Notes under the pieces: generated by a model | What the model was told of the DNA's origin: nothing | What the model saw: the letters and a program-made list of their open reading frames with translations, nothing else | Databases searched by the model: none | Translations under genes and position numbers: made by a program | Part shown: one piece after another, positions 57,594 through 64,000 of the stretch | Layout of the letters: each line of letters opens with the position of its first letter | Numbering within the stretch: the first letter of the stretch is position 1 | Origin: Streptomyces sp. RPA4-2 | GTDB lineage: Bacteria; Actinomycetota; Actinomycetes; Streptomycetales; Streptomycetaceae | Direction of reading: 5' to 3' | Length of the DNA: 64,000 bases | NCBI RefSeq assembly: GCF_012273515.2 | Contig: NZ_CP050975.2 | Coordinates: forward strand, 9,362,001-9,426,000

Positions 57594-59204
57594 CTAGGAG
57601 CCGTTGGAGCTCGACGGGCCGAAGAACTCGATCTCCGCGATGGAGACCTGCTTGGAAGCGGCGGCGCCGTAGGCCGAGCGGATGATGAAGCGGACCGCGG
57701 TGACGTCACCCGCGCGGAACTTACGGCTCTGGCCGCCCGCGCCCTGGTCGAGGGTGAGGAAGCGAGTGGTGGTCCTGCCGTTCGCGGTGGTGACGCGAGC
57801 CTCGATGCGGTGCGGCAGCGCCGATTGGGAGATCTGGTCCGCGTGGGTGGAGACGCCCGGAGTGATGACCAGGTCCAGCAGCCTGGTCGGCTGTGCGAAG
57901 CGGGCCTCCAGCCACTCGCCGTCCCCGGACTGCGAGACGCCCGGTCCCCACCAGGTGTTGTTCAGCTTGTCGAAGGCGAGCCCGGCGCCGTGACCGGGGA
58001 AGGAACGGGACGCCTTGTAGCTGTCGGGGCCGATCGGGGCCCGCTTGGCGAAGTGGTCCTTCACGGCCTGCACCGCCGTACCGGTGTTCATCGCGGCGAC
58101 CACCAACAGAGTGAGCACGACCGCGCCGACCACCCAGTTCATGACGCGTCCGAAGCCGCGGCGCAGGCGGGGCCGGTCGCCGGCCCACGGCGTCTGCCCG
58201 TTGCGGGAGTTGAGCAGCCGCCGCCACCAGGGCAGCCGCTCCGGGGTCTGCCGTTCGCCGGCCATGGGCAGCGCGCATCGGCCGCAGAAGTGCCGGTCCG
58301 GACGGTTGGGAGTGGCACACCAGGGGCAGGGCAGGCCCCCTTCCGCGCCCGGCTCGCCACCCGGGGCACGGACCTGTGGGCGGTTCGCCACGGGGAGTCC
58401 CGGCAGCACGGGCGCCACCGAAGGCGCCGCGGGCCGCTCTTCCGGATCCGCCACCGGTACCAGCAGCGACCTGGCCCGCTCGGCCGCGGAGTCCCGGGAG
58501 ACCTCGGGGGCGGAGGACGGCAGCGGCTCGGTGTCCGCGGTGTCGTCGTGACCTGCCACGGCCGTGGGGGAGGCGTCGGGAAGGCTCGGGTGGGCGCGCG
58601 GGACGTCGTCGCCGGTACCTCCCGGGCCGCCGTGGACGGGGCTCGCCGCGGCCCGCGCATCGACCGCCACGTCCGAGACCGCGTCGCTGTGGTCCACGTT
58701 CGCGCTGTTGCTGTTGCTGTTGCTGTTGCTGTTGCTGTTGCTCGCGTTGGCGTTTGCGGTGGCCTTGTCCGCGCCCACGGCGTCCGGGCCGCCCGTGCCC
58801 GTCTGTCGCGCACCGGTTCCGGCGTCCATGTCATGGGCCGTACGCGCCGTCCCCGTACCGGCGCCCGGCACGGGGAACGCGTCCCACCCCGGCTCGCCCT
58901 CGGCGGACCCGGCGCCGCTTACCGCCGTCCCGGGGGCTCCGGACGTGACGGCGGCCGTGGGCCGTCCGCCCCGGGCGCCGGCGGCCGGTGGCGCCTCGTC
59001 GGTGGCCACGGCGCCGGGGCGCCGGGTCTCCGCCGCCCCCGCCCGGGAACCGCTCGCCCTGGCGGCCGTCGCGGCCGGACTCCCGGCCCAGTCGAGCACC
59101 GCGCCGCAGGCGTCGCAGAAGGACTGACCGGGCTCCGCCCGAGTGCCGCATTCGGCACAGGCGGGGGCACGCCCGGGTTCGGTGCCTGGGGTCTGGGTGG
59201 TCAT
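57594..59204 (-). CDS. eCIS-associated zinc-ribbon, transmembrane, discoidin-like protein
   Basis: A 536-residue protein with an unusual order: N-terminal zinc ribbon (CAECG...CDACG, about 15-35), a long Ala/Gly/Thr-rich disordered stretch including six Asn-Ser repeats, a second ribbon (CPWCATPNRPDRHFCGRC, about 295-312), a basic region, one transmembrane helix (about 355-373, VVGAVVLTLLVVAAMNTG), and an extracytoplasmic discoidin/F5-8C-like beta-sandwich (about 400-536; NNTWWGPGVSQSGDGEWLEA, FGPSSSNGS end). ATG overlaps the tail protein's stop (ATGA). It may tether the injector to the membrane or carry out target recognition. Confidence 0.8.
   Translation of the reverse strand: MTTQTPGTEPGRAPACAECGTRAEPGQSFCDACGAVLDWAGSPAATAARASGSRAGAAETRRPGAVATDEAPPAAGARGGRPTAAVTSGAPGTAVSGAGSAEGEPGWDAFPVPGAGTGTARTAHDMDAGTGARQTGTGGPDAVGADKATANANASNSNSNSNSNSNSANVDHSDAVSDVAVDARAAASPVHGGPGGTGDDVPRAHPSLPDASPTAVAGHDDTADTEPLPSSAPEVSRDSAAERARSLLVPVADPEERPAAPSVAPVLPGLPVANRPQVRAPGGEPGAEGGLPCPWCATPNRPDRHFCGRCALPMAGERQTPERLPWWRRLLNSRNGQTPWAGDRPRLRRGFGRVMNWVVGAVVLTLLVVAAMNTGTAVQAVKDHFAKRAPIGPDSYKASRSFPGHGAGLAFDKLNNTWWGPGVSQSGDGEWLEARFAQPTRLLDLVITPGVSTHADQISQSALPHRIEARVTTANGRTTTRFLTLDQGAGGQSRKFRAGDVTAVRFIIRSAYGAAASKQVSIAEIEFFGPSSSNGS
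58705..58740. repeat. (CTGTTG)6 hexanucleotide microsatellite
   Basis: Six perfect copies of a 6-base unit, coding (minus strand) for six Asn-Ser pairs in the disordered region of the eCIS-associated membrane protein. In-frame changes in copy number would not disrupt the gene. Confidence 0.9.
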
Positions 59205-62193: not shown

Positions 62194-64000
62194 TCACGGC
62201 AGTGGATAGGGCTTGTTGTTGACCATCACCAGGCCCTGGAGGGGGATGGTGACGGCCCGGATGCCGACGGCCGCGATGGAGTTGACCTGGACGGTGCCGC
62301 CCGCCGTGAGCGTCGCGGCGCCGACCGCCTTGAGGCTGAGCGCCCCCACCGCGTCGACGTTGACCGCCCCGCCGAGGGACTTCAGGTTGACGAGCCCACG
62401 GCCCTCGATGCTGAGCGGTCCGCCGCTCTTGATCGTCAGACTCCGGCGCGCGCTCAGGGTGAGGTCCGTGCCCGCCTCCACCGACACCGACCTGCTGCCC
62501 TTGATGGTGACGGACCCCTTGCTGTCCACCGTGATCTCGGTCTTCGTACGGTCGAGGTTGATGGTCAGCTTGTCGTTGCCGGAGGCGATGCGCACACCCT
62601 GCTTACGAGCACCGGTCTGCTGGCTGAGCAGGTCGACGCGATTGCCCTTCCGGTCGGACAGGGTGTGCCGGATCGCCTGCTTCTTGAGCCCGTCGTGCAG
62701 CGGGACGTCGCTGACGACGGTCGGTCTGTCCTTGCCGTTGTAGAGGCCGCCGACGACGAACGGGTGATCCAGGGCGCCGCGGTCGAAGGCCACCAGCACC
62801 TCGTCACCGACGTCGTACGGGAACACCCCGCCGCCGCCCTTACCGCCCAGTTGCACGGTGCGCGTCCAGTCGCTCTCGTACAGGTCGTCCAGCCAGGGGA
62901 ACTGCAGCTTGACCCGGCCCTGTTTGAGGGGGTCCTGGACGTTTGTCACCAGGGCGTTGGCAACGCTCGGCAGCTTCGGCGTGGTGGCCGTACCGCCTCC
63001 GGAGGTCAGGCCGTACAGGGAGCGCCACTGCCGGCCGCTGACGGTCACCCAGGTCCGGTAGGGCTCGTCGTTGCCGAACTCGTGCCGTACGGAGGTGACC
63101 GTGTACTGCCCCTCGAAAGGCTTGCCCACGTCGGTGAGCGCGATCGGGACGCCGGGGCGCAGCTTGGGGTTGCCCCAGACCACGACCTCCAGCTCGGCGA
63201 AGGACGAGGTCACGTCGTCGGCCAGGGCCTCGGCGGCGAACTTGACCTCGGGCTGCCGGTCGTAGGGTGTGTCGGTCTCGACGAGTTTGGCGGGCTTGAA
63301 CTTCTTCGCCGTGTCCTTCGGCGTGACGCCGATGGCGAACCCGGCATTGGCCGTGGCGGGCGCGGTCGCGGTCAGCTTCTTCTTGGTCCCGACGTCCCAG
63401 CCGCGGGCCTCGGTCTTGGCGACCTGGTCGGCGGAGGTCACCGCGGCCCTGCAGCGCAGCACGTCCACGCCGCCCTGGAGCACGAAGGGACTCTTCTCGC
63501 CGGGTGTGCTCGTCGAGGGTGCTCCGGACGCCGGGTCGGGCTTGACGAACTGGAACCTCCCCTGGGAGTCCAGCGACATCACCATCTCGTTCTCGTCGGC
63601 GAGCCGGGCCAGGAAGTCCCAGTCGGTGACGTTGGCCTGGCTGATGAACTCGTACACGGTCCGGGTGGACCTGACCTTGGCACCGACCGGGATGCCGTTC
63701 ATGGCGACCAGTTTGCGGACGATGTCGGAGGCCGTCTGATTGCGGTAGGCGGCCACCCTGCGCTGGCGCATCAGACGGTGGCCGAGGTCGTAACCGCGTA
63801 CGACGGTGAAGGTCCCGGTGCCGTCGTAGTCGGTCTCCATCCCGGTGACCTCGCCGGTCAGCAGCGGGGAGGAGGCCCCCTGGCCGTCGGCCACCGGCGC
63901 GAGGACCACCTCGGTGCCGCACTGGACACCGAGGTCACCGAGCACCAGCCGGTCCGGGTCGCGGAAGGTGAGCCGGAACGCGCCCGGCACCCCGGCCCCG
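62194..64000 (-). CDS. eCIS VgrG-like spike protein, 5' end outside the window
   Basis: At least 602 residues visible. N-terminal gp27-like domain (VVRGYDLGHRLMRQRRVAAY, NVTDWDFLARLADENEMVMS), OB-fold VgrG region (VQDPLKQGRVKLQFPWLDDL, FPYDVGDEVLVAFDRGALDH, PFVVGGLYNGKDRP) and a C-terminal beta-helix (ITVDSKGSVTIKGSRSVSVE repeats) without a fused toxin. The frame continues past the window end, so only about 20-40 residues are missing relative to the usual length. Forms the puncturing tip. First visible gene of the operon; 40-base gap to gp25. Confidence 0.9.
   Translation of the reverse strand, partial: GAGVPGAFRLTFRDPDRLVLGDLGVQCGTEVVLAPVADGQGASSPLLTGEVTGMETDYDGTGTFTVVRGYDLGHRLMRQRRVAAYRNQTASDIVRKLVAMNGIPVGAKVRSTRTVYEFISQANVTDWDFLARLADENEMVMSLDSQGRFQFVKPDPASGAPSTSTPGEKSPFVLQGGVDVLRCRAAVTSADQVAKTEARGWDVGTKKKLTATAPATANAGFAIGVTPKDTAKKFKPAKLVETDTPYDRQPEVKFAAEALADDVTSSFAELEVVVWGNPKLRPGVPIALTDVGKPFEGQYTVTSVRHEFGNDEPYRTWVTVSGRQWRSLYGLTSGGGTATTPKLPSVANALVTNVQDPLKQGRVKLQFPWLDDLYESDWTRTVQLGGKGGGGVFPYDVGDEVLVAFDRGALDHPFVVGGLYNGKDRPTVVSDVPLHDGLKKQAIRHTLSDRKGNRVDLLSQQTGARKQGVRIASGNDKLTINLDRTKTEITVDSKGSVTIKGSRSVSVEAGTDLTLSARRSLTIKSGGPLSIEGRGLVNLKSLGGAVNVDAVGALSLKAVGAATLTAGGTVQVNSIAAVGIRAVTIPLQGLVMVNNKPYPLP

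Follow-up and report, generated by a model that had tools for sequence, protein, structure and literature searches.

The window analysed here is a stretch of 64,000 bases from Streptomyces sp. RPA4-2, corresponding to C1:9362001-9426000 of a single contig of 9,860,181 bases, and its last 6.4 kb hold part of a contractile injection system (CIS) whose final gene encodes a 536-residue protein, the main subject of this work. Five minus-strand genes, coding for VgrG, gp25, baseplate J, Cis12 and the 536-residue protein, form one operon (Table 1), in which the ATG of the last gene (59204) shares four bases with the stop codon of cis12. The upstream part of the cluster (locus L003) is readable on the same contig, and encodes on the same strand a LysM/CIS_tube protein, a gp19-like tube protein, a phage-type sheath and an AAA ATPase. 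The class IId gene set, comprising sheath, tube, LysM hub, spike, gp25, J, Cis12 and AAA ATPase, is hence found in one cluster. All four baseplate proteins have their best match in the solved S. coelicolor CIS (9GTP, 9GTR), while the sheath and tube best match S. coelicolor CIS sequences likewise contained in 9GTP or 9GTS. By its genes, the locus is a Streptomyces-type (class IId) cytoplasmic CIS. A preliminary description, made from the bare letters, had read the five coupled genes as the 3' part of such a system; the coordinates, the Pfam and NCBIfam families and the S. coelicolor matches bear this out, and of the genes that it suggested looking for upstream, those for sheath, tube and ATPase are present. 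The start of cis9 might lie at 62153; the match to 9GTP chain V runs from residue 6 on.

Table 1. Genes of the CIS operon and features of its last protein, in window positions
Feature	Position	Strand	Basis
cis8, VgrG-like spike	62194..64000, runs past window end	-	NF033848 VgrG-related, 800 bits; 9GTR chain q, 1.3e-272
cis9, gp25-like sheath initiator	61713..62168	-	PF04965; 9GTP chain V, 3.9e-82
cis11, baseplate J	59755..61713	-	TIGR02243 putative baseplate assembly protein, 673 bits; 9GTP, 1260 bits
cis12, Tail_P2_I	59201..59758	-	PF09684/TIGR02242; 9GTP chain E, 1.3e-88
cisA orthologue, 536 residues	57594..59204	-	Zn_Ribbon_1, NF047619, gene slot, likeness to CisA
Zinc ribbon 1, residues 16-33, CxxC-x10-CxxC	59106..59159	-	Pfam Zn_Ribbon_1; cysteines invariant in 12/12 CIS CisA of alignment A2
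Ser-Asn microsatellite in linker, 6 bp x 6.5	58704..58742	-	Perfect repeat; length differs among close relatives
Conserved linker stretch ahead of ribbon 2, residues 238-290	58335..58493	-	Many relatives align from 238 on; weak in divergent CisA
Zinc ribbon 2 beside membrane, residues 293-310	58275..58328	-	Cys invariant in alignments A1 (50 rows) and A2 (12 rows)
Juxtamembrane PWWRRL...AGxRPRLRR motif, residues 325-349	58158..58232	-	Invariant in A1: W41, W42, A56, G57, R59, P60
Membrane helix, residues 354-372	58089..58145	-	Most hydrophobic 19 residues; helix in predicted model
Extracytoplasmic discoidin/CBM32-like domain, residues 399-526	57627..58010	-	NF047619; Foldseek, VIA-align

Architecture and identity of the 536-residue protein

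The protein is composed, in order, of a first zinc ribbon, a long linker, a second ribbon, a PWWRRL motif, one membrane helix and a discoidin-type domain, with the single strong helix following a long part that is predicted to be cytoplasmic. The ribbon profiles score 29 bits for Zn_Ribbon_1 (cut-off 25) and 26.8 for DZR, just below its cut-off of 27.3, and all eight ribbon cysteines are invariant in A2, an alignment of the window protein with 11 CIS CisA proteins retrieved via the C-terminal domain. The Cys-rich region ahead of the membrane helix is, judging by these residues, probably zinc-binding. The linker between the ribbons ranges from 161 to 493 residues in 64 Streptomyces-type relatives and is about 43 residues long at locus L124. 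As the length of the Ser-Asn tract within it varies among close relatives, and two of the eight relatives checked showed no such tract, this repeat looks like slippage within the linker. WWRRL was considered as a universal CisA signature and rejected, being absent from several divergent CisA proteins; we retain it as a common feature only.

The C-terminal domain matches the NADase_discoid family NF047619 with 70 bits (cut-off 38), and the Pfam family NADase_transloc with 18.6, below its cut-off of 27. Foldseek and VIA-align comparisons of the predicted structure return discoidin/CBM32 matches, and the domain accordingly models as a discoidin/F5-8 type C/CBM32 fold with putative sugar binding. 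The published descriptions of the CisA C-terminal domain, in the parts accessible to us, call it sugar-binding, carbohydrate-degrading-like or solute-binding-like. The last of these, the wording of PMC12237407, was examined as a fold assignment and dropped, with no periplasmic binding protein among the best 50 Foldseek and best 50 VIA-align matches listed. The zinc ribbons, Ser-Asn linker, single membrane helix and sugar-binding-like domain named in the preliminary description are thus all recovered, by profile matches, hydrophobicity, the repeat itself and the predicted model, and structure prediction of the C-terminal region gives the last of them a fold.

By sequence comparison the protein is an orthologue of CisA/SCO4242, with the same architecture and the same gene slot. 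The S. lividans (P0153) and S. anthocyanicus (P0155) proteins both contain the two ribbons and are 468 residues long, the size given for CisA in PMC12237407. Aligned with P0153, the window protein shows 61% identity across 302 residues and 92% across 24 residues at ribbon 1, and the most hydrophobic stretch of P0153 begins at residue 285, the position of the membrane helix in PMC12237407. Like S. coelicolor CisA, the window protein follows the baseplate genes and has a flexible cytoplasmic N-terminal part, a Cys-rich, perhaps Zn-binding region ahead of one membrane helix, and a conserved carbohydrate-binding-like C-terminal domain of ~150 residues; unlike it, the protein reaches 536 residues, with a longer linker that bears the Ser-Asn repeat.

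Much of the biology of CisA is on record in the accessible parts of three papers. Casu 2023 described a membrane segment and a sugar-binding domain, proposed an adaptor role, and reported that S. coelicolor CIS particles stay cytoplasmic and act on the producing cell (PMC10066040). Vladimirov 2023 recognized a Cys-rich, perhaps Zn-binding stretch ahead of the membrane helix and a carbohydrate-related C-terminal domain (PMC10020575). Casu 2025 showed that S. coelicolor CisA resides in the membrane, that reporter fusions in E. coli place its N-terminus inside, and that both contraction in the cell and stress-induced cell death depend on it (PMC12237407). The earlier suggestion of a membrane anchor for the injector agrees with these reports, and its statement that the role is unknown is out of date, CisA having already been published as a requirement for firing. 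The role being largely published, the new content here is comparative: the pairing of the ribbons, the fold of the ectodomain and an ectodomain-free counterpart. The accessible text of these three papers does not mention the N-terminal zinc ribbon, the word 'zinc' being absent from it; in databases, such proteins already carry the names 'zinc ribbon' or 'NADase-type glycan-binding'.

Two-ribbon proteins with and without an ectodomain

Among 296 genomes of the class, NF047619 matches are present in 142 (75 above cut-off) and TIGR02243 matches in 55 (52 above). The analysed set consists of 51 above-cut-off discoidin matches in frames shorter than 1000 residues and of 41 single-frame J loci in 40 genomes; 15 of the 55 TIGR02243 genomes, with only partial, tandem or weak J matches, were set aside, and frames longer than 1000 residues were excluded from the discoidin set on purpose. 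NF047619 also matches frames of about 1,400-2,000 residues in many genomes. These long frames may be arabinofuranosyltransferase-like, given an AftD structure among the matches and a weak match to CBM_AftD. One above-cut-off match outside the 51 (G077) lies in an 879-residue frame that runs from the first base of its contig; it has no CxxC, and no J match is listed in that genome.

Twenty-two of the 51 discoidin matches lie within 16 kb of J and 29 do not, although three of these 29 (G035, G203, G160) appear to be CisA from broken contigs. Across the 31 sampled Streptomyces, a short-frame discoidin protein is present in all 14 with a single-J CIS locus, including one (G035) whose only copy is at a contig end, and in none of the 17 without such a locus; these genomes are related, hence we attach no probability to the difference. 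Four of the 17 hold J-like matches of another type. Away from CIS, the remaining 26 of the 51 matches belong to other actinobacterial families and combine at most one ribbon with a transmembrane (TM) helix and the discoidin domain. The idea that the family might be widespread outside CIS loci is accordingly not borne out in the sampled Streptomyces and holds elsewhere, for proteins of this simpler layout.

We assembled 30 CIS-linked discoidin proteins, namely the 22 near J, the three on broken contigs, four sub-cut-off proteins beside J, and a further sub-cut-off protein about 15 kb from J (G067). Two canonical ribbons are seen in 22 of them and two ribbons with one variant in five (CxC type in G124, G160, G049 and G277; a variant first ribbon, judged by eye, in G165); the other three are not fully readable, being cut by contig ends (G203, G035) or masked (G212). 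Two ribbons are therefore present in 27/27 readable CIS-linked relatives, and the architecture seen in the window recurs beside other CIS. None of the 26 proteins away from CIS has two ribbons: 18 have one and eight have none, and three of the eight (G097, G064, G126) are truncated by a contig end. Within this set of discoidin proteins, the pairing of ribbons was seen only in the CIS-linked ones. These loci were retrieved through the discoidin domain, which makes this test less biased than the finding of two ribbons in 64/64 relatives, where the query peptides spanned both ribbons and which covers 64 of 80 loci, the other 16 having been dropped because their start could not be set. The away-from-CIS proteins (e.g. 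L125, L126) resemble the window protein in that 18/26 have a ribbon on the N-terminal side, a linker, a helix and the discoidin domain; unlike it, they have neither a second ribbon nor the WW[RK] motif (3/26 cut at contig ends). CIS genes were not found in roughly 7-10 kb on each side of L125 and L126.

Some individual loci depart from the common arrangement. In two Streptomyces (L117, L118) a cisA-like gene lies about 1.7 and 8.6 kb from cis12 on the opposite strand, still within the CIS region, and one Streptomyces (G213) has two different CIS loci (L121, L122), each with its own CisA. The CisA proteins of L148, L157, L159 and L144 form a group from one family (f16) with a second ribbon of the CxC type. 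A second locus type with large J-like frames in tandem occurs in G050, G204, G230, G246 and G278, with no above-cut-off short-frame discoidin match listed beside these frames.

In nine actinobacterial J loci without a discoidin CisA (G083, G205, G153, G113, G060, G171, G051, G045, G137), the slot after cis12 is filled by a tail-anchored protein of 188-217 residues with two ribbons and no ectodomain. Taking the nearest possible start, its gene shares four bases with the end of cis12 in 5/9 and 20 in 4/9. These proteins have in common an RRLPGT sequence between the ribbons, invariant in 9/9, a stretch rich in Pro and a membrane helix at the C-terminus. Among 80 homologues, two ribbons are found in 77, a hydrophobic helix in 79 and an exact RRLPGT in 61; in the 79 with a helix, the best 19-residue segment stops, at the median, 2 residues short of the C-terminus. 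Where a source gives them a name, the homologues are nearly always called 'hypothetical protein' (the exceptions are one DZANK-type and one RNA-polymerase-like name), and relatives occur in Jiangella, Nocardioides, Georgenia and Acidimicrobiia. A model of one such protein (alignment A5, 55 rows) has ordered ribbons and a C-terminal helix, with a mean predicted local distance difference test (pLDDT) score of 79 and a predicted template modelling score of 0.31. The literature consulted on CIS, with supplements and subscription journals outside the search, yielded no description of this protein.

In a tree of Cis11 the nine ectodomain-free loci form one clade (100/100). This tree carries a long-branch warning and leaves out the partial L147; it labels L156 (G067) 'none', a discoidin protein having been found there later. 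Its root is unsure, and gain of the ectodomain is therefore indistinguishable from loss. Three of the nine genomes (G051, G153, G171; one genus) also encode a one-ribbon-TM-discoidin protein far from the CIS, and fusion or swap of the ectodomain is therefore plausible. Counting both kinds, 30 discoidin CisA and nine ectodomain-free proteins, 39 of the 41 J loci have an adaptor.

The membrane adaptor reading and its alternatives

The conservation of the ribbons and membrane helix on the one hand, and the absence of the C-terminal domain from one clade on the other, suggests from sequence that ribbons and helix make up a conserved core to which the ectodomain is an optional addition. We consider it likely that the window protein is the CisA orthologue acting as membrane adaptor and checkpoint of the class IId CIS, built of a ribbon-helix core and an exchangeable ectodomain; the ectodomain is regarded as an exchangeable input because one actinobacterial CIS clade has an ectodomain-free, two-ribbon, tail-anchored protein in the same slot. 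In such an adaptor the two ribbons would sit at the two ends of a flexible cytoplasmic tether, the linker, of very variable length. Ribbon 1 might act as a long-reach handle that engages the particle or a different partner, ribbon 2 with WWRRL would be the near end fixed at the membrane surface, and the discoidin/CBM32 domain outside could read the state of the wall or its glycans as an optional input. The broader proposal, that a double-ribbon, single-helix adaptor in the slot after cis12 is common to actinobacterial cytoplasmic CIS, with an optional sensory ectodomain and with the ectodomain-free proteins as the missing CisA equivalents of CIS that apparently have none, is one towards which we lean slightly.

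Several points weigh against these readings. The S. lividans and S. anthocyanicus proteins P0153 and P0155 were compared in place of the SCO4242 sequence itself, and the predicted structure model is of middling confidence (mean pLDDT 73). According to the accessible text of PMC12237407, the solved particle contains no CisA, and contact between CisA and Cis11 is a prediction only. Two of the 41 loci (G010, G259) have neither form of the protein in the 39 and 37 kb examined. Profile comparison aligns the ectodomain-free family with CisA over ribbon 2 only (probability 94.8, 29 columns), an alignment that generic zinc-ribbon likeness could give, and common descent of the two forms therefore rests mainly on position.

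The absence from the solved particle also bears on the view that the 536-residue protein is a tail-fibre-like part of the particle that binds a target surface. Its gene has the position of fibre genes in other CIS, Sco4242 was detected in all three particle purifications (PMC10020575), and CisA peptides were present in crude preparations from nisin-stressed cells (PMC12237407). Yet the 2025 particle structure contains no CisA, the protein is recovered in the membrane fraction and has its N-terminus inside (PMC12237407), and a membrane helix behind cytoplasmic ribbons is ill-suited to a released fibre, so that we deem this view improbable. A sensor of wall or glycans that signals on its own account and merely adjoins the CIS would be in keeping with the many proteins away from CIS, in other actinobacterial families (26/51 matches), that join the same discoidin domain to a TM helix and at most one ribbon. 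However, these lack the second ribbon and WW[RK] motif (with 3/26 cut at contig ends), the discoidin protein tracks CIS in the sampled Streptomyces with its operon overlap kept, and the published S. coelicolor cisA mutant, which shows that firing depends on cisA, largely refutes this proposal (PMC12237407); we find it very improbable. The chance that the protein is itself injected as an effector, in the manner of the TM-lectin proteins Sco4256-4258 with their one membrane helix and carbohydrate-binding-type domain, seems to us slimmer still, even though CisA is toxic in E. coli (PMC12237407) and a separate Ig-TM-ricin gene of the same general logic is present in the cluster (L003:9476-10900). 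The folds differ, cisA lies downstream of the baseplate genes in one operon whereas the effector unit is divergent and upstream, and loss of cisA blocks contraction itself whereas loss of effectors results in empty tubes (PMC12237407, PMC10066040).

The membrane adaptor reading has a parallel in the Anabaena thylakoid CIS, where Cis13, baseplate-associated and bearing a membrane helix, and a Cis12 extension likewise tie an intracellular CIS to a membrane (PMC8894136). Unlike the window protein, the Anabaena anchor is part of the particle and, in the accessible text, has no comparable ectodomain, and the word 'zinc' is absent from the main text of that paper. Such adaptors bear on the way in which a cytoplasmic injection machine locates the membrane of its own cell and commits itself to firing. 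CisA homologues are reported, in the accessible text, for 79% of CIS-positive Streptomyces (PMC10066040) and 75% of class IId regions (PMC10020575), which by subtraction leaves roughly one in five to one in four Streptomyces CIS without one, and the Roseiflexus CIS is said to have no close CisA homologue. Our comparison sorts the parts of CisA into those that are kept, the two ribbons and the membrane helix, and those that vary, the linker length and the ectodomain, and it offers the ectodomain-free protein as a concrete candidate in a CIS clade that has no discoidin CisA. If the broader proposal is true, these proteins would mean that the cytoplasmic face suffices on its own to license firing.

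Neighbouring genes

Convergent with the CIS operon, window positions 55486-56948 hold an NfeD-like gene (a weak match) and a flotillin-like gene. A special link of flotillin/NfeD to CIS was considered and dropped, with a flotillin homologue in 3/80 relatives' loci (L004, L005, L077), 61 of these 80 loci being longer than 15 kb. Upstream of the window, a divergent unit comprises two genes (L003:9476-10900 and 11039-12440) that begin with much the same Ig-like/TM region and are similar to the Sco4256-4258 effectors. The first of these terminates in a ricin-type lectin domain; in the second the frame stops after 313 residues and is followed by a separate 136-residue frame with a ChW repeat, representing one interrupted gene or two. 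Between the sheath and the effector-like genes, L003:7948-9357 encodes a 469-residue protein with a HEATH metallopeptidase-like motif (weak M35 match, E 0.013). It also contains an LQRAAGNAAV stretch, a feature of CIS-linked cargo, and is a possible cargo protein.

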